Made by a program: the position numbers and the translations under genes. From positions 1 through 5,711 of the forward strand of contig CAMOGC010000106.1 in NCBI GenBank assembly GCA_946613955.1: a DNA stretch of 5,711 bases, read 5' to 3'. Shown in pieces: positions 1 to 5,711 of the stretch. The notes below the pieces were generated by a model, which was given only the letters and a program-made list of their open reading frames with translations, was not told the origin of the DNA and did not search any database. The stretch is from an uncultured Clostridia bacterium (GTDB taxonomy: Bacteria; Bacillota_A; Clostridia; Christensenellales; Aristaeellaceae). Numbering within the stretch: the first letter of the stretch is position 1; each line of letters opens with the position of its first letter.

Positions 1-1018
1 CGCAGAGGAAGCCCTCCGGCAGGGAGATCCGCCGGTTGGCGGAATCGTCCAGGGTGCGCTCCAGCCACTGGGTGGAGGCGGTCATGGCGGCGTTCAGGGA
101 ATCCGCCATCAGATAGCGGCTCAGGGAGCAGATCCGCTCGCAGCGCATGGGGTTGCGCTTATAGGGCATGGCTGAGGAGCCGATCTGATGATCCTCGAAG
201 GGCTCCTCCACCTGCCGGTCATGCTGCAGGAGGCGCAGATCCTCGGCCATGCGGTACAGGCTCTGGCCGATGGCACTCAGGCAGGAAAGAATCCGGCTGT
301 CCAGCTTCCTTGGATAGGTCTGGCCGCAGACGTCAAAGAGCCGCGGGAAGCCGAAGCGGTCCCGCAGGCGCCGGTTCAGCTCCTCGACCTTTTCCCCGTC
401 GCCCTCAAAGAGCTCCAGGAGGCTGGCCTCGCTCCCCGTGGCGCCCCGGCAGCCCAGGAAGGGAATATGGGCCAGGACGAAATCCAGCTCCTCCAGATCC
501 GCCGCCAGATCCTGCAGCCAGAGGGCGGCGCGCTTTCCGACGGTGACCGGCTGGGCCGGCTGATAATGGGTGTAGCCGAGGGTGGGGAGGGCCTTGTATT
601 TGTCTGCGAAGGCGGCCAGATTCGCCATGACGCCCAGCAGCTCCCCGCGGAGATACCGCAGGGCGTCCCGATAGAGGATCAGATCCGCGTTATCGGTCAC
701 ATAGCAGCTGGTGGCCCCCAGATGAATGATGCCGGCGGCTTCCGGCGCCGCCAGGCCGTAGGCGTGGACGTGGGCCATAACGTCATGGCGGACTTCCTTT
801 TCCCGGGCCGCGGCGGCGTCAAAATCGATGTTGTCAATTTCCCTCTCCAGGGCCGCCACCTGGCTCTCCGAAACGGGCAGCCCCAGCTCGCTTTCCGCCC
901 GGGCCAGCTCCGTCCACAGGCGGCGCCAGGTCCGGATGCGGGTGCGGGCGGAGAAGAGCGAAAGCATATAGGGGGAGGCGTAGCGGGAGGAAAGGGGGGA
1001 TTCATAGCGGTCGTACAT
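1..1018 (-). CDS. purB: Adenylosuccinate lyase, 3' end cut off by the window edge
   Basis: Cytoplasmic fumarase/aspartase-superfamily lyase that releases fumarate from adenylosuccinate (giving AMP) and from SAICAR (giving AICAR) in purine synthesis. I translated 339 residues from the ATG at 1018-1016; family members are about 475 aa, so roughly 135 C-terminal residues lie beyond position 1. Visible landmarks are the N-terminal MYDRYESPLSSRYAS; RHDVMAH with His78; GATSCYVTDN at 101-110; YTHYQPAQP with the probable catalytic His151; GQTY with Gln233; and the superfamily signature GSSAMPYKRNP at 280-290 with the catalytic serine at 281 or 282. H78, H151, Q233 and S281 all fall exactly eight positions before H86, H159, Q241 and S289 of human ADSL as I remember it. 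It is therefore the human-like form, not the shorter B. subtilis form. The start has a good ribosome binding site 6 bases upstream. The gene follows purA by 108 bases on the same strand, the logical next enzyme. I saw no frameshift or missing catalytic residue in the visible part. Confidence 0.96.
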   Translation of the reverse strand, partial: MYDRYESPLSSRYASPYMLSLFSARTRIRTWRRLWTELARAESELGLPVSESQVAALEREIDNIDFDAAAAREKEVRHDVMAHVHAYGLAAPEAAGIIHLGATSCYVTDNADLILYRDALRYLRGELLGVMANLAAFADKYKALPTLGYTHYQPAQPVTVGKRAALWLQDLAADLEELDFVLAHIPFLGCRGATGSEASLLELFEGDGEKVEELNRRLRDRFGFPRLFDVCGQTYPRKLDSRILSCLSAIGQSLYRMAEDLRLLQHDRQVEEPFEDHQIGSSAMPYKRNPMRCERICSLSRYLMADSLNAAMTASTQWLERTLDDSANRRISLPEGFLC

Positions 1019-1024
1019 GGCTTT

Positions 1025-1030
1025 TCCTTT
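1025..1030 (-). promoter_or_regulatory. Ribosome binding site of purB
   Basis: On the minus strand this reads AAAGGA, 6 bases before the purB ATG at 1018-1016. It supports this start, where the protein begins with the family's typical MYDRYESPL N-terminus. No other start nearby fits better. Confidence 0.75.
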
Positions 1031-1126
1031 CTTTGATGGCTCGCGGAGGACGCGGACGTTCCGAGGGCGCGCGGGATGGGGCCGGTCAGGACCGTCCGAC
1101 GCTGCGCGCACCTTCCGGCGCCCGCC

Positions 1127-2407
1127 TTACTTCTGGCGGACGATGCAGGCGTCCCGGTCCGCTCCGACGGAGACGTAGGTGATGGGGCAGCCGATCGCCC
1201 GCTCGATCATCTCGACATAGTTCCGGGCGGCGGCGGGCAGATCCTCCCATTTCCGCGCGGCGGAGATATCCTCCCGCCATCCGGGCATGGTGGTCATCAC
1301 GGGCTTGCAGTCCTTCAGGCGGGTGGGGAAGGGGAAATCGTCGATTTCCTTTCCGTCCAGCTCATACCGGGCGCAGACGGGGATTTCCGCCAGATCGCTC
1401 AGCACGTCCAGCTTGGTCAGGGCGATGCCCGTCGCGCCCTGCACCTCCACGCCGTAGCGGGTGGCGACCAGGTCGATCGGGCCCACCCGGCGGGGACGCC
1501 CGGTTTTCGCGCCGTATTCATTGCCGGCGGTGCGCAGCCGCTCGGCCTCCTCCCCGAACATCTCGCAGACGAAGGGCCCCTCGCCCACGCAGGTCGAATA
1601 GGCCTTGACCACGCCGATTACCTCGTCCACCTTCGCGGAGGGGATGCCGGAGCCCACCGGGGCAAAGGCCGCGATGGTGTTGGAGGAGGTGGTATAGGGC
1701 ACGATGCCGTAATCCAGATCCCGCAGGGCGCCCAGCTGGGCCTCGAAGAGGAAGCGCTTGCCGTCCTTCTGGGCCTCCCGCAGGAAGGAGGTGGTATCGC
1801 AGACGAAGGGCAGGATCTTCTCCCCCCATTCCTGCAGCCAGGCCAGCAGGTGCTCCGGGGTTTCGGCCGCGGCGCCGTAGACGCCGGTCAGGGTCAGGTT
1901 TTTCCACTCCAGCAGCTGCATCGCGTGCTCCCGCAGGGCGTGGGGATCCCGCAGCTCGCCGGCCAGGAGGGTCTTTTTCTGATACTTGTCGGAATAGAAG
2001 GGGGCGATTCCCTGGCGGGTGGAGCCGTACTTTTTGTCCTTCAGCCGGGCCTCCTCCAGCCCGTCGAGCTGCCGGTGCCAGGGGAGCAGGAGGGACGCCC
2101 GCTCGCTGATCTTCAGGTTTTCCGGCGTGATGGGGACGCACTGGGCGCGCACCTGCTGAATCTCGGTCCAGAGGTTTTCCGGATCCAGGGCCACGCCGCT
2201 GCCCAGCACGTTGACCACGCCCGGACGGAAGATGCCGGAGGGCAGCAGATGCAGGGCGAATTTCCCGTATTCGTTGATGACGGTATGGCCGGCGTTGCCG
2301 CCGCCCTGATAGCGGATCACCACGTCATAGCGGCTGGTCAGCAGGTCGACCATGCGGCCCTTGCCCTCGTCGCCCCAGTTGATGCCGACAATCGCGCAAT
2401 TGGACAT
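1127..2407 (-). CDS. purA: Adenylosuccinate synthetase, divergent clostridial-type form
   Basis: Cytoplasmic, normally homodimeric enzyme that uses GTP to join IMP and L-aspartate into adenylosuccinate, the first committed step to AMP. Complete at 426 aa, close to the usual 425-435. The N-terminal loop is WGDEGKG at 11-17 with catalytic Asp13; NAGHT at 38-42 carries catalytic His41; TKLDVLSDL near the C-terminus is the guanine-recognition motif. The sequence departs from the E. coli type at IMP-contact positions. GTTGRGIGP is replaced by GSTRQGIAP (128-136), and the position of Arg143, which reaches into the partner subunit's IMP site, is Lys144. The aspartate loop reads KTGRPRR instead of TTGRRRR. 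I recall a similar GSTR-type PurA group in clostridia, so this is probably a lineage variant and not decay. The ATG has a strong AAAGGAGG ribosome binding site. It lies 44 bases after the carB-dapF stop and 108 bases before purB, its pathway partner. Confidence 0.95.
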   Translation of the reverse strand: MSNCAIVGINWGDEGKGRMVDLLTSRYDVVIRYQGGGNAGHTVINEYGKFALHLLPSGIFRPGVVNVLGSGVALDPENLWTEIQQVRAQCVPITPENLKISERASLLLPWHRQLDGLEEARLKDKKYGSTRQGIAPFYSDKYQKKTLLAGELRDPHALREHAMQLLEWKNLTLTGVYGAAAETPEHLLAWLQEWGEKILPFVCDTTSFLREAQKDGKRFLFEAQLGALRDLDYGIVPYTTSSNTIAAFAPVGSGIPSAKVDEVIGVVKAYSTCVGEGPFVCEMFGEEAERLRTAGNEYGAKTGRPRRVGPIDLVATRYGVEVQGATGIALTKLDVLSDLAEIPVCARYELDGKEIDDFPFPTRLKDCKPVMTTMPGWREDISAARKWEDLPAAARNYVEMIERAIGCPITYVSVGADRDACIVRQK

Positions 2408-2451: not shown

Positions 2452-3315
2452 TCAGTATTCGATGGTTGCCTCGTAAACCTGGGCGACGCCGCCCCGGAGG
2501 GAGACGCGCCCGCCCTCATAGCGGACATAGAGGTTGCCGCCGGGCACCTGCACCTGGACATCGGTGCCCTCCCGGCAGTATCCGTTAACCACCGCCGCCG
2601 CCACCGCCGCGCACGCGCCGGTGCCGCAGGCCATGGTTTCCCCGCTGCCCCGCTCCCAGCAGCGCATGCGCAGGGTCGTCGGGTTCACGACCCGGACGAA
2701 TTCCGTGTTCACCCGGTTGGGGAAGAGTTTCGAATGCTCGAACTGGGGGCCGATATGGGCCAGATCCAGCAGGTCCGGCTGATCGGTAAAGACCACGCAG
2801 TGGGGGTTGCCGACCGACAGGCAGGTGACCCGGTAATGCTGCAGCTCGATGGCCGTCCGGGTCCGGTTGGGGCCGCCGATCTGGATCGAAACGTCGACCG
2901 CCGGGTTTTTGTCCACCAGCACCGGCACCGCCGCCGGGGAGAAGTCCACCGGGCCCATGTCCACCGTAACCGACTGGACATGGCCGAAGCGCTTGACGGT
3001 TTTCAGCCGGCTGACGCCGCCGGCCGTCTCGATGGCGATTTCCTCGCCGGAAACCAGCCCCCGGTCGCTCAGATACCGGGCGGCGCAGCGGATGGCGTTG
3101 CCCCCGGTGACGCCCTCGGTGCCGTCCCGGTTGAAGAGGCGGAGCCGCGCGTCGGCCCGGTCGGAGGGCAGGATCAGGGCCAGCCCCTCGGCACCGGGGC
3201 CGAAATGGTTTTCGCACAGGCGGACGGCGAGGGACTCGATGCCCTGGATGGGCTCGCGCATGCCGTCCACGACGATGTAGTCGTTGCCCGTGGCCTGCAT
3301 CTTGACAAAGCGCAG
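2452..3315 (-). other. dapF: Diaminopimelate epimerase-like module of the fusion, lacking the first catalytic cysteine
   Basis: DapF interconverts L,L- and meso-diaminopimelate for lysine and peptidoglycan, using two cysteines on opposite faces of the substrate. This module is 287 residues, slightly over the usual 270-280, and covers both halves of the fold. Counting from its first residue (LRFVKM), it has GNDY with Asn11; FNRDG with Asn62; GNPHC at 169-173 with Asn170 and His172; Asn203; Glu221 and Arg222 in WERGSGET; and Cys230 in ACGTGAC. These match H. influenzae and E. coli N11, N64, N157, H159, N190, E208, R209 and C217. The motif that normally reads CGNGxRC is instead GGNAIRC, so the Cys73 position is Gly71 (GGG at 3105-3103); Cys77 remains. 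The intact frame and conserved binding residues argue against decay. Activity could be lost, altered, or sustained by another residue. Family membership is near certain; epimerase activity is uncertain. Confidence 0.9.
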
Positions 3316-5711
3316 GGTCTGGCGGGAGGCGCGCATGTGGTTGAGGTCCACCAGCTCCGTGCTTCTTTCGGAATAGCGGCTCAGGAGCGTGTCCGCCAGG
3401 GCCCGGGCCGTATCCAGCGAGGTCAGGCAGGGAATGCCCAGGGCCAGGGCCCGCCGGTGCAGCGCGATATAATCCTGGACCGTGTCATCCAGCAGGGCGC
3501 CGGTATAGATGATGTACTGCACCTGGCCGCTTTCCAGCAGGTCGAAGGCGTGGTCGCTCTCCCGGATGCCCGCCACCGGCCGCACAGGGATGCCCATGCG
3601 GGAGATGGTTTCCGCGGTCCCCTGGGTGGCGTAGAGGGTGCAGTGGAGATCATAGAAGCGGCGGGCGACCTCGATGACTTCGGGATAGTCGTATTCCGCC
3701 ACGGAGAGGAACACGCCCGCCTCGTCCTCCGCCTCGGTCACGCGCATGCCGGCGGCGGTGAGCCCCTTGAACAGGGCCTCGCTGACGTTCTTGCCGATGC
3801 CCAGCACCTCGCCGGTGGATTTCATTTCCGGCCCCAGATAGGCATTGGCGTCGGAGAGCTTCTCGAAGGAGAAGACCGGCACCTTGACGGCGGAATAGGG
3901 CGGGGGCGTGCGCAGCCCGGTTCCGAAGCCCAGGGAGGCCAGGGGCTGCCCCAGCATGACCCGGGCCGCCAGATCCACCATCGGCACGCCGGTCACCTTG
4001 CTGATATACGGCACGGTACGGGAGGCGCGGGGGTTGACCTCGATGACGTAGAGCTCCCCGTGGAACACCAGATACTGGATGTTGACCAGCCCGCGGGTCC
4101 CCAGGGCCAGGGCCAGCTTTTCGCTGGCGGCCACCACCGTGTCCATCATGTGGTCGTCCAGGGTATAGGGCGGATAGACGGCGATGGAATCCCCGCTGTG
4201 GACGCCGGCACGCTCGACATGCTGCATGATGCCGGGAATCAGCACGTCCTTCCCGTCGGAGATGACGTCCACCTCCAGCTCGATGCCGGGCATATACTGA
4301 TCCACCAGCACCGGGTTTTCGATGCCGTGGGCCAGGATGCGGTTCATATAGGTAACCACGTCCGCGTCCCGGTGGGCGATGGTCATGTTCTGGCCGCCGA
4401 TGACGTAGCTGGGCCGCAGCAGCACCGGATAGCTCAGCCGCTCCGCCGCCGCCAGGGCCTCCTCCAGGGTCAGGACGGATTCCCCCTTGGGCCGGCGGAT
4501 GCCGAAGCGCTCCAGCAGCGCGTCGAAGCGGGAGCGGTCCTCCGCCAGGTCGATGCCGTCGGCGCTGGTTCCCAGGATGCGGATGCCCCGCCGGTCCAGC
4601 GCCTGCACGAGGCGGATGGCGGTCTGCCCGCCGAAGGCCACAACCACGCCCTCCGGCTTTTCCGCCTCGATGACCCGGAGCACGTCCTCCTCCGTCAGGG
4701 GCTCGAAATACAGCCGATCGGCGGTGTCATAGTCGGTGGAGACGGTTTCCGGGTTATTGTTGACGATGACCACGTCATAGCCCAGATCCCGCAGGGTCCA
4801 CACGCAGTGGACCGAGGAATAGTCGAATTCGATGCCCTGGCCGATGCGGATGGGGCCGGAGCCCAGCACCAGCATGACCGGGCGGCCGCTGCGGGGGAAG
4901 AGGGCCGATTCGTCCGCCCCCTCCTCGAAGGTGCCGTAGAAATACGGGGTCTCCGCGTCAAATTCCGCCGCGCAGGTATCCACCATCCGGTAGGAACAGG
5001 CCGCCCGGGGCAGCTCCTGCCGGCCGCTGAGCCGGCGCAGGGCGGCGTCGGGATAGCCCAGGCGCTTGCCCCGGAAATACTGCTCATCCGTCAGGCCCCC
5101 GGCGATTTCCGCCTCGAAATCCGCCAGGTGCTTCATCTTCCAGAGGAAGAAGGGGTCAATGCGGGTGATTTCATGGATCTTTTCCACCGGGATCCCCGCC
5201 TTCAGGGCCTCAAAGACCGTAAACAGCCGGTGGTCGTCCGCCCGGGCGAGCCGCTCCTCCAGGGGCGCCCCGTCCTCGGCGGCGCGGTTCAGGGTGTCCA
5301 TCCCGATTTCCGCCCCGCGCACGGCCTTCATCAGGGCCATTTCGAAGGTGGGCCCGATGGCCATGACCTCGCCCGTGGCCTTCATCTGGGTCCCCAGGAT
5401 CCGGGAGGCGGAGGGAAACTTGTCGAAGGGCCATTTGGGCATCTTGACGACCACGTAATCCAGCGTGGGCTCGAAGCAGGCGCAGGTCTTCCCCGTAACC
5501 TCGTTTTTGATCTCGTCCAGCGTATAGCCCAGGGCGATCCGCGTCGCCACCTTGGCGATGGGGTAGCCGGTGGCCTTGCTGGCCAGGGCGGAGGAGCGGG
5601 ACACCCGGGGGTTGACCTCGATGACCGCGTATTCAAAGCTGTCGGGATGCAGGGCAAACTGGCAGTTGCAGCCTCCCACGATCCCCAGGGCGGAGATGAT
5701 CTCCAGGGAGG
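2452..5711 (-). CDS. carB: Carbamoyl-phosphate synthase large subunit fused to a DapF-like module, 5' end cut off
   Basis: CarB makes carbamoyl phosphate from bicarbonate, ammonia (passed from CarA) and two ATP, for pyrimidines and arginine. 1085 residues are visible; about 268 N-terminal residues lie beyond 5711, so the whole protein should be near 1350 aa against about 1070 for ordinary CarB. Numbering from the first whole codon: end of the carboxyphosphate ATP-grasp domain (1 to about 134), with equivalents of E. coli Q285, E299 and N301 at 17, 31 and 33; oligomerisation domain (about 135-270); second ATP-grasp domain (about 275-655), with GPIRIGQGIEFDY, ornithine-site equivalents E499 and D507 in the ERAGVHSGD motif, and Q545, E557 and N559 matching E. 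coli Q829, E841 and N843; MGS-type allosteric domain (about 655-798); then a complete DapF-like module (799-1085). Both synthetic halves look active. The allosteric domain keeps Thr695 and Thr698 but not other UMP contacts. There is no stop, frame change or internal ribosome binding site at the junction. CarA is not in the window. Confidence 0.95.
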   Translation of the reverse strand, partial: SLEIISALGIVGGCNCQFALHPDSFEYAVIEVNPRVSRSSALASKATGYPIAKVATRIALGYTLDEIKNEVTGKTCACFEPTLDYVVVKMPKWPFDKFPSASRILGTQMKATGEVMAIGPTFEMALMKAVRGAEIGMDTLNRAAEDGAPLEERLARADDHRLFTVFEALKAGIPVEKIHEITRIDPFFLWKMKHLADFEAEIAGGLTDEQYFRGKRLGYPDAALRRLSGRQELPRAACSYRMVDTCAAEFDAETPYFYGTFEEGADESALFPRSGRPVMLVLGSGPIRIGQGIEFDYSSVHCVWTLRDLGYDVVIVNNNPETVSTDYDTADRLYFEPLTEEDVLRVIEAEKPEGVVVAFGGQTAIRLVQALDRRGIRILGTSADGIDLAEDRSRFDALLERFGIRRPKGESVLTLEEALAAAERLSYPVLLRPSYVIGGQNMTIAHRDADVVTYMNRILAHGIENPVLVDQYMPGIELEVDVISDGKDVLIPGIMQHVERAGVHSGDSIAVYPPYTLDDHMMDTVVAASEKLALALGTRGLVNIQYLVFHGELYVIEVNPRASRTVPYISKVTGVPMVDLAARVMLGQPLASLGFGTGLRTPPPYSAVKVPVFSFEKLSDANAYLGPEMKSTGEVLGIGKNVSEALFKGLTAAGMRVTEAEDEAGVFLSVAEYDYPEVIEVARRFYDLHCTLYATQGTAETISRMGIPVRPVAGIRESDHAFDLLESGQVQYIIYTGALLDDTVQDYIALHRRALALGIPCLTSLDTARALADTLLSRYSERSTELVDLNHMRASRQTLRFVKMQATGNDYIVVDGMREPIQGIESLAVRLCENHFGPGAEGLALILPSDRADARLRLFNRDGTEGVTGGNAIRCAARYLSDRGLVSGEEIAIETAGGVSRLKTVKRFGHVQSVTVDMGPVDFSPAAVPVLVDKNPAVDVSIQIGGPNRTRTAIELQHYRVTCLSVGNPHCVVFTDQPDLLDLAHIGPQFEHSKLFPNRVNTEFVRVVNPTTLRMRCWERGSGETMACGTGACAAVAAAVVNGYCREGTDVQVQVPGGNLYVRYEGGRVSLRGGVAQVYEATIEY

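Follow-up and report, generated by a model that had tools for sequence, protein, structure and literature searches.

The window, meaning the whole stretch of 5,711 nucleotides analysed here, comes from an uncultured Clostridia bacterium and carries the following genes and domains.

2452..5709, minus strand: CarB-DapF fusion gene, its ORF open at the window edge and its 5' end beyond the window
3421..3681, minus strand: MGS-like allosteric domain of CarB (Pfam PF02142, residues 677-763 of the window ORF), just ahead of the DapF module
2455..3330, minus strand: DapF module, 292 amino acids as analysed (TIGR00652 above cut-off)
1127-2407, minus strand: purA, downstream of the fusion gene
2-1111, minus strand: Lyase_1 gene, cut by the window edge, downstream of purA

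A protein database search found the full-length product, P0001, of 1352 amino acids, on a 64,692-base contig. Residues 1-1050 of P0001 align with E. coli CarB 1-1062 and the remainder is DapF; judged by the extent of this alignment, the CarB part is full-length, with both ATP-grasp halves. CarB is the large subunit of glutamine-dependent carbamoyl-phosphate synthase (CPS), and DapF is diaminopimelate (DAP) epimerase, an enzyme of cell-wall and lysine synthesis. The identity of the fusion rests on NF003671 (951.9 bits) and TIGR00652 (229.7 bits against a cut-off of 114.65). The AlphaFold2 model of the module has a pLDDT of 92.1 and a pTM of 0.90, and its structural matches have DapFs on top and dehydratases of the same fold below them. 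By curated profile, model and structural matches, the module has the DapF fold and lies above the family cut-off, and dapF here is part of a CarB-DapF fusion and not a stand-alone gene. Downstream of the fusion gene, where purA and then the Lyase_1 gene follow, there is no DAP-pathway neighbour, an adjacency that is usual for dapF, not obligatory. We ourselves read the Lyase_1 gene as purB-like. The plus strand, opposite the fusion gene, holds a 992-codon open frame (2734-5709), probably a by-product of codon use and no gene, and PADLOC gave no match.

Around the site of the first catalytic Cys the minus-strand ORF 2452-5709 reads FNRDGTEGVTGGNAIRC. In the alignment EGVTGGNAIRC of the window pairs with EGKSCGNGLRC of the Bacillus DapF 2otn, and Gly76 therefore stands at the position of the first catalytic Cys, which is Cys83 in C. 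glutamicum DapF and Cys73 in H. influenzae DapF. With module residue 1 at 3330, the catalytic and contact sites are as follows, placed by alignment unless a codon reading is given.

3283..3285, minus strand: Asn16 (C. glutamicum DapF Asn15), kept
3130..3132, minus strand: Asn67 (C. glutamicum Asn74), distal carboxylate contact, kept
3108-3106, minus strand: Thr75 (codon reading, ACC)
3103..3105, minus strand: Gly76 at the first catalytic Cys position (codon reading, GGG, and alignment)
3097..3102, minus strand: Gly77-Asn78 (C. glutamicum Gly84, Asn85), reacting carboxylate contacts, kept (codons GGC 3102-3100 and AAC 3099-3097)
3087-3085, minus strand: Cys82 (codon reading, TGC)
2806..2808, minus strand: Asn175 (C. 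glutamicum Asn159), kept
2707..2709, minus strand: Asn208 (C. glutamicum Asn194), kept
2650..2655, minus strand: Glu226-Arg227 (C. glutamicum Glu212, Arg213), kept
2626..2628, minus strand: Cys235, second catalytic Cys, kept (codon reading, TGC, and alignment)
2620..2625, minus strand: Gly236-Thr237 (C. glutamicum Gly222, Thr223), kept

All ten DAP contacts (Asn15, Asn74, Gly84, Asn85, Asn159, Asn194, Glu212, Arg213, Gly222 and Thr223 in C. glutamicum numbers) are thus present in the window. According to the excerpt of the C. glutamicum DapF study from which this contact list was taken (PMC5296763), Ala mutants at Asn15, Asn74, Asn85, Asn159, Asn194, Glu212, Arg213, Thr223 or either Cys had their activity almost abolished. 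The first-pass annotation had claimed a Gly (GGG, 3105-3103) in place of the first catalytic Cys, with the second Cys and the substrate contacts kept; codons and the 2otn alignment bear this out in sequence, place and frame, and we agree that two substitutions separate TGC or TGT from GGG. The residues that it called Cys230, Thr70 and Cys77 are Cys235, Thr75 and Cys82 in our module numbering.

The loss of this Cys is widespread among CarB-DapF fusions. We took the best 120 of 5202 and the best 120 of 7969 matches from two protein searches ranked by likeness to the window; in these 240 proteins, the window's P0001 included, the first and second sites read A/C in 117, G/C in 86, C/C in 35, and R/C and S/C in one each, and the best 120 of the fused-query search, again including the window's own, were G/C (72) or A/C (48). 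Because lists ranked by likeness to the window favour its kind, less biased genome sets were examined as well. A species-genome scan, in which modules with more than 200 amino acids upstream counted as fused and both search patterns include the second Cys (CGTGACAA), so that it is biased for the second site, gave among its best 80 loci fused modules with A (26), G (10), S (2), F (1) or C (19) at the first site, and unfused or contig-edge-cut ones with C (19), G (2) or A (1). An even sample covered 107 genomes of one order, 90 of them with DapF, with no pattern selection; every match above the cut-off was read, fused meant more than 400 amino acids upstream in frame, and six genes with long open leaders and no CarB match were counted as unfused. 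Its 51 fused modules read A/C 20, G/C 9, F/C 4, S/C 3, T/S 1, A/N 1, C/C 11, C/S 1 and C/cut 1. The first Cys is absent from 38 of these 51 against none of 69 unfused DapFs, all C/C, and 36 of those 38 modules retain the second Cys. The best listed relative of the window among 394 genomes of the order of genome G003 has 55% identity. The Cys-less fusions belong to a large group of Clostridia, mostly gut bacteria.

A sequencing, assembly or binning error would have in its favour that the window protein is known from one contig and that five Gs stand in a row at 3105-3101. However, proteins on other contigs (P0002 to P0017) share the Gly and every one of the 120 fused-query proteins has A or G at this site; homologues refute an error, to which we attach practically no probability, and the earlier statement that no base-call fault is involved holds. 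The alignment with fused and unfused relatives proposed in the first-pass annotation shows instead a loss common to a whole group of fusions under selection, which is neither an error nor a single-genome oddity.

The contact-residue counts cover 185 different fused modules without the first Cys, of which the likeness-ranked protein search supplied 110 and genomes 75, and, for comparison, 151 two-Cys modules (34 fused, 117 unfused). Outside the counts stand one edge-cut Cys-less module and 134 others, all distinct, whose fusion state is uncertain (91 lacking the Cys and 43 having it). The pooled classes for contacts, dapL neighbours and column conservation include 30 high-score loci from the best matches in 295 genomes. 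In C. glutamicum numbering, the 185 keep Asn74 in 184, Gly84 in 181, Asn85 in 180, Asn159 in 180, Asn194 in 182, Glu212 in 184, Arg213 in 181, Cys221 (the second Cys) in 182, Gly222 in 185, Thr223 in 182 with three Ser, and Asn15 in 164 with 17 Asp. The 75 genome-derived modules, taken alone, have ten of the eleven contact positions at 93-100% (Asn74 74, Gly84 71, Asn85 71, Asn159 70, Asn194 72, Glu212 74, Arg213 71, Cys221 72, Gly222 75, Thr223 72 with three Ser), Asn15 being found in 58 with 14 Asp. The 91 Cys-less modules of unsure fusion state also keep the contacts, the lowest being Asn159 (87/91), with Asn15 in 68 and Asp there in 21. Asp in place of module residue Asn16 occurs in 17/185 Cys-less modules against 0/151 two-Cys ones. 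Among 284 columns, Asn74, Asn194, Glu212, Arg213 and Cys221 rank 20-54 in conservation in Cys-less modules. Only three of the 185 lack both catalytic Cys; at the first site, Gly in the window, Thr is found in one and Phe in four. dN/dS is 0.03-0.29 in nine of 13 Cys-less pairs, the other four being saturated. Judged by these substitution ratios and counts, the fold, the pocket and the second Cys of the Cys-less modules are evidently under purifying selection, and the sequence pattern is that of a pseudoenzyme, with a catalytic residue lost across relatives and purifying selection retained. The suggestion that Thr75 or Cys82 might act as a substitute base fares poorly in the same set: position 75 is Thr in 14 of the 185 and Met in 129, and Cys82, kept in 175 of the 185, is kept equally in two-Cys modules (34/34 fused, 110/117 unfused).

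Two further changes were observed in the Cys-less fusions. Many of the A/G type have gained a Cys cluster, C30-x4-C35-x3-C39-x2-H42, shortly ahead of the GADG loop: at least two of its three Cys are found in 144/185 Cys-less fusions (36/75 from genomes, 108/110 from the protein search), in 0/34 fused and in 1/117 unfused two-Cys modules. It may be a metal or redox site, or merely a set of small buried residues; as a metal site in the window it is ruled out, since the region (3205-3243) retains only Cys39 and His42. The GADG loop itself reads GAEG, through a change at module residue 48 (window 3187-3189), in 66/185 Cys-less fusions, including the window; all 66 come from the protein search and none from the 75 genome-derived modules, and Asp stands there in 150/151 two-Cys modules.

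With FastTree we built a tree from 110 fused modules (window included) and 35 random unfused ones, 145 in all, omitting the columns around the site. The fused label changes twice, the first Cys 11 times (at least seven for the Cys-less group on starred branches) and the second Cys three times; the window's nearest row is L003, with support 95. Rooted on unfused two-Cys DapFs, the tree reads as a fusion that arose mainly once, as a two-Cys enzyme, and then lost its first Cys repeatedly. The closely related two-Cys fusions L184 and L190 lie outside the main fused group and perhaps represent a second fusion event. Of 116 unfused two-Cys dapF genes, six stand immediately downstream of a carB-type gene, from which a stretch resembling a ribosome-binding site separates them; this is likely the pre-fusion state. 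At one of the six, L090, the carB-type gene is itself a Cys-less carB-dapF fusion, followed by the intact dapF and then by a DapL-like gene. Whether or not a fusion has the first Cys, its CarB tail (T)ELVDIN.MR passes straight into the module. Some loci stand apart. In L139 (G067, A/S), L234 (G097, T/S) and L235 (G104, A/N) both catalytic Cys are lost and other motif positions altered, perhaps a later stage of decay. The Cys-less fusions L046, L061 and L076 fall within the Clostridia tree and come from contigs assigned to Treponema or Spirochaetaceae bins, through either transfer or misbinning. At L001:3305-7840 an ORF of 1512 amino acids, whose start presumably resembles carA, runs in frame into CarB-DapF, a possible triple fusion or assembly fault.

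We surveyed the union of both genome sets, 107 genomes, for another route to meso-DAP. Of these, 75 have a Cys-less module (in L023, L043 and L064 among them the contig ends before CarB is reached, which leaves fusion unproven) and 32 have the first Cys (including G073, with Ser as second Cys, and G117, with the module cut); meso-DAP dehydrogenase (Ddh) was called by TIGR01921 above its cut-off. The 75 Cys-less genomes have an unfused DapF in 46, else Ddh in 24, and neither in five, an alternative route in 70/75, against 19/32 for the first-Cys genomes (unfused DapF 5, else Ddh 14, neither 13). Fisher's test gives p 5.7e-5 for any alternative and 1.5e-5 for unfused DapF alone, values that ignore kinship; there are four independent pairs on starred branches and ten on all branches. 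Of 24 genomes counted with an unfused DapF in one set, 22 read Cys, the copies in G009 and G014 being fragments off the first site; an extra match in G042 is not a DapF and was excluded. The first-pass annotation had raised the question of a second DapF with both Cys, and the 46 of 75 related genomes answer it in the affirmative. DapB, the control for missing genes, was found in 66 of the 75. The five genomes in which neither unfused DapF nor Ddh was found (G012, G028, G030, G037 and G096, of which G030 and G037 are binned as Treponema) all have DapB and are therefore a real loose end. Gene neighbours, surveyed for dapL and carB, agree with this pattern: dapL lies within 2 kb downstream of 62/112 unfused dapF genes, 9/33 first-Cys fusions and 0/65 Cys-less fusions with at least 1 kb downstream each, the edge-cut Cys-less L090, with dapL behind its intact dapF, being classed apart. 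Two of the DapL genes were called above the TIGR03542 cut-off and the others by a profile built from three.

The CarB part has changed too. We take Lys954 of E. coli CarB to be a residue of the nucleotide site; Asn1015 and Thr1017 presumably have roles in the control of CarB too. The effector lysines Lys954 and Lys993 are not needed for CPS activity as such. An excerpt of PMC6245113 names Thr977 and Lys993 of E. coli CarB as important for UMP, and Thr1042 as important for ornithine. By alignment, the window has the following residues at the two lysine positions, and keeps Thr977 and Thr1042.

3568..3570, minus strand: Gly at the position of E. coli CarB Lys993 (UMP binding)
3685..3687, minus strand: Tyr at the position of E. 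coli CarB Lys954

Lys993 is K or R in 35/35 first-Cys fusions, 25/30 unfused CarBs of the same order and 42/180 Cys-less fusions, the 180 including window-like proteins from the protein search, all of which lack it; the genome-derived rows give 34/34 first-Cys against 42/81 Cys-less and the even sample 12/12 against 18/33. Most S, F and T types keep it (4/5, 4/4 and 1/1). Lys954 is Lys in 34/35 first-Cys fusions, 29/30 unfused CarBs and 33/180 Cys-less fusions. Among the fusions, the nucleotide site thus eroded only where the first Cys is already gone. All 18 Dollo losses of Lys993 fall on Cys-less branches, which make up 70% of tree length (a crude estimate, p 0.0015, assuming a midpoint root and irreversible loss), and a kinship-paired comparison has four pairs only. 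Since Lys993 persists in roughly half of the Cys-less fusions from genomes, and is absent from five of 30 unfused CarBs, the two losses are not tightly linked.

Taken together, we think there is about an even chance that the module is a former DapF without DAP epimerisation, which now serves CPS as an accessory or regulatory domain that binds a ligand, with both the ligand and the regulatory role putative. In such a course of events, carB and dapF, operon neighbours in a few relatives, would have fused, the sequence pattern pointing to one main origin; in lineages with an unfused two-Cys DapF or Ddh, Ala, Gly, Ser, Phe or Thr would then have replaced the first Cys on several occasions, a correlation that we observe with an order of events that we infer; and purifying selection would have held the fold, the pocket and the second Cys. 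Because these are under selection, the module may still bind DAP or a close relative, and since a thiol is left on one face only, normal epimerisation is probably lost, as the Cys mutants of other enzymes suggest. Tethered behind the allosteric domain of CarB, the module would most likely report the level of a DAP-type amino acid to CPS, and, where Lys993 of the UMP site is gone, as it is from the window and from roughly half of the Cys-less fusions taken from genomes, it may partly stand in for the nucleotide effector. A binding pocket left almost unchanged suggests an enzyme turned sensor or accessory domain, and the idea of a binding-only pseudoenzyme, raised in the first-pass annotation next to that of a substitute base, is the part that fits the evidence best. 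A complication is that first-Cys fusions also coexist with Ddh, in 14/32 genomes. We would go further only tentatively, to a DAP-gated CPS in a large group of Clostridia, in which a retired DapF would sense DAP, set the supply of carbamoyl phosphate and hence of UTP and the UDP-sugar precursors of peptidoglycan, and replace the nucleotide site wherever the latter is eroded; this extension we regard as improbable.

Other readings share part of this evidence. Near-complete retention of the second Cys seems to exceed the needs of a mere binding site, and because it is kept in 182/185 modules (72/75 from genomes) whereas the residue at the first site varies between A, G, S, F and T, a one-thiol catalyst has to be considered, in which Cys235 would take the alpha-proton from one face for a stereospecific elimination, dehydration or proton exchange. 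The change of Asn16 to Asp in Cys-less modules alone would suit a new chemistry, as would the dehydratases among the structural matches, which rank under the DapFs, and a superfamily member with Thr in place of a Cys acts as a dehydratase, as stated in the part of PMC8142540 consulted. However, a shared new reaction predicts one fixed residue at the first site, which is varied, the Phe found there in four modules should block the face, and the contacts are the ones used for DAP itself, so that we consider this reading unlikely. Similarly doubtful to us is a structural domain, kept because folding or oligomerisation of CPS depends on it, with pocket conservation as a by-product of fold constraint: the direct (T)ELVDIN.MR junction with or without the first Cys, the persistence of L139, L234 and L235 without either Cys, and the inactive pDHO needed for Pseudomonas ATCase activity (as excerpted from PMC7053772) all speak for it, but a pure scaffold has no need of five contact residues at ranks 20-54 of 284, and both Cys are lost in only three modules.

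That the module is still an epimerase, with water or another side chain replacing the first thiol and meso-DAP formed slowly, would account for the five Cys-less genomes that have DapB and no other DapF or Ddh found, and Ala, Gly and Ser do leave space for water. Yet C83A of C. glutamicum DapF is almost fully inactive and C67S of the F. nucleatum histidine racemase greatly reduced, in the excerpts seen of PMC5296763 and PMC11602996 respectively, no replacement base has been gained in residues 68-89, and it is the free copy, not the fused one, that is of the kind adjoining dapL in Cys-less genomes; we rate continued epimerisation as very improbable, well below the readings above, and hold to the ligand-binding domain of CPS as the preferred one.

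The family, the fold and the fusion partner are of known kinds. Against DapF as described by TIGR00652 and PF01678, the window module differs in its absent first Cys and its position C-terminal to CarB, and Cys-less fusions do not adjoin dapL. Two-Cys CarB-DapF fusions (L012, with carA upstream; L029, from Ruminococcus sp. FC2018) share architecture and junction and differ in having both Cys, in dapL following 9/33 of them, in that no unfused DapF was found in 27/32 of their genomes, and in keeping Lys993 (35/35) and Lys954 (34/35) of CarB. The E. coli DapF C73A/C217A double mutant still binds and stimulates RppH, according to the portion of PMC4227774 used here; as proposed for our module, a DapF body there controls another enzyme without epimerase activity, whereas the natural E. 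coli protein is active and acts in trans, and in the fusions the loss arose in nature and CPS is the fused partner. The pseudo-dihydroorotase (pDHO) of Pseudomonas is likewise an inactive enzyme relative kept within a pyrimidine-pathway enzyme (excerpt of PMC7053772), but it has another fold, serves another pathway enzyme, is a separate chain, and the need for it is shown experimentally. By sequence and by structure the closest matches of our module are DapFs and not one-Cys dehydratases. EcL-DER is a member of another racemase family. In trans-3-hydroxy-L-proline dehydratase and EcL-DER one racemase Cys is replaced and the other kept, as in our modules, although their replacement is Thr and their reaction known, in the excerpt of PMC8142540, whereas our modules mostly have Ala or Gly. 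Among the listed titles and abstract starts of open-licence literature we found neither such a fusion nor a DapF that has lost its first Cys naturally and repeatedly while under selection within CPS.

Since TIGR00652 scores the module at twice its cut-off, annotation by family score would call modules of this kind active DapF, and metabolic models would gain false meso-DAP routes. If the preferred reading is true, an enzyme would here have been turned into a binding domain by nature, more than once, and both the start and the end of the process would survive, in two-Cys fusions that are often the sole DapF found in their genome and in Cys-less lineages in which the pocket is held. The module would also offer a clean test of one of two symmetric catalytic thiols acting alone, and it may reveal a new allosteric link between peptidoglycan precursors and pyrimidine supply.
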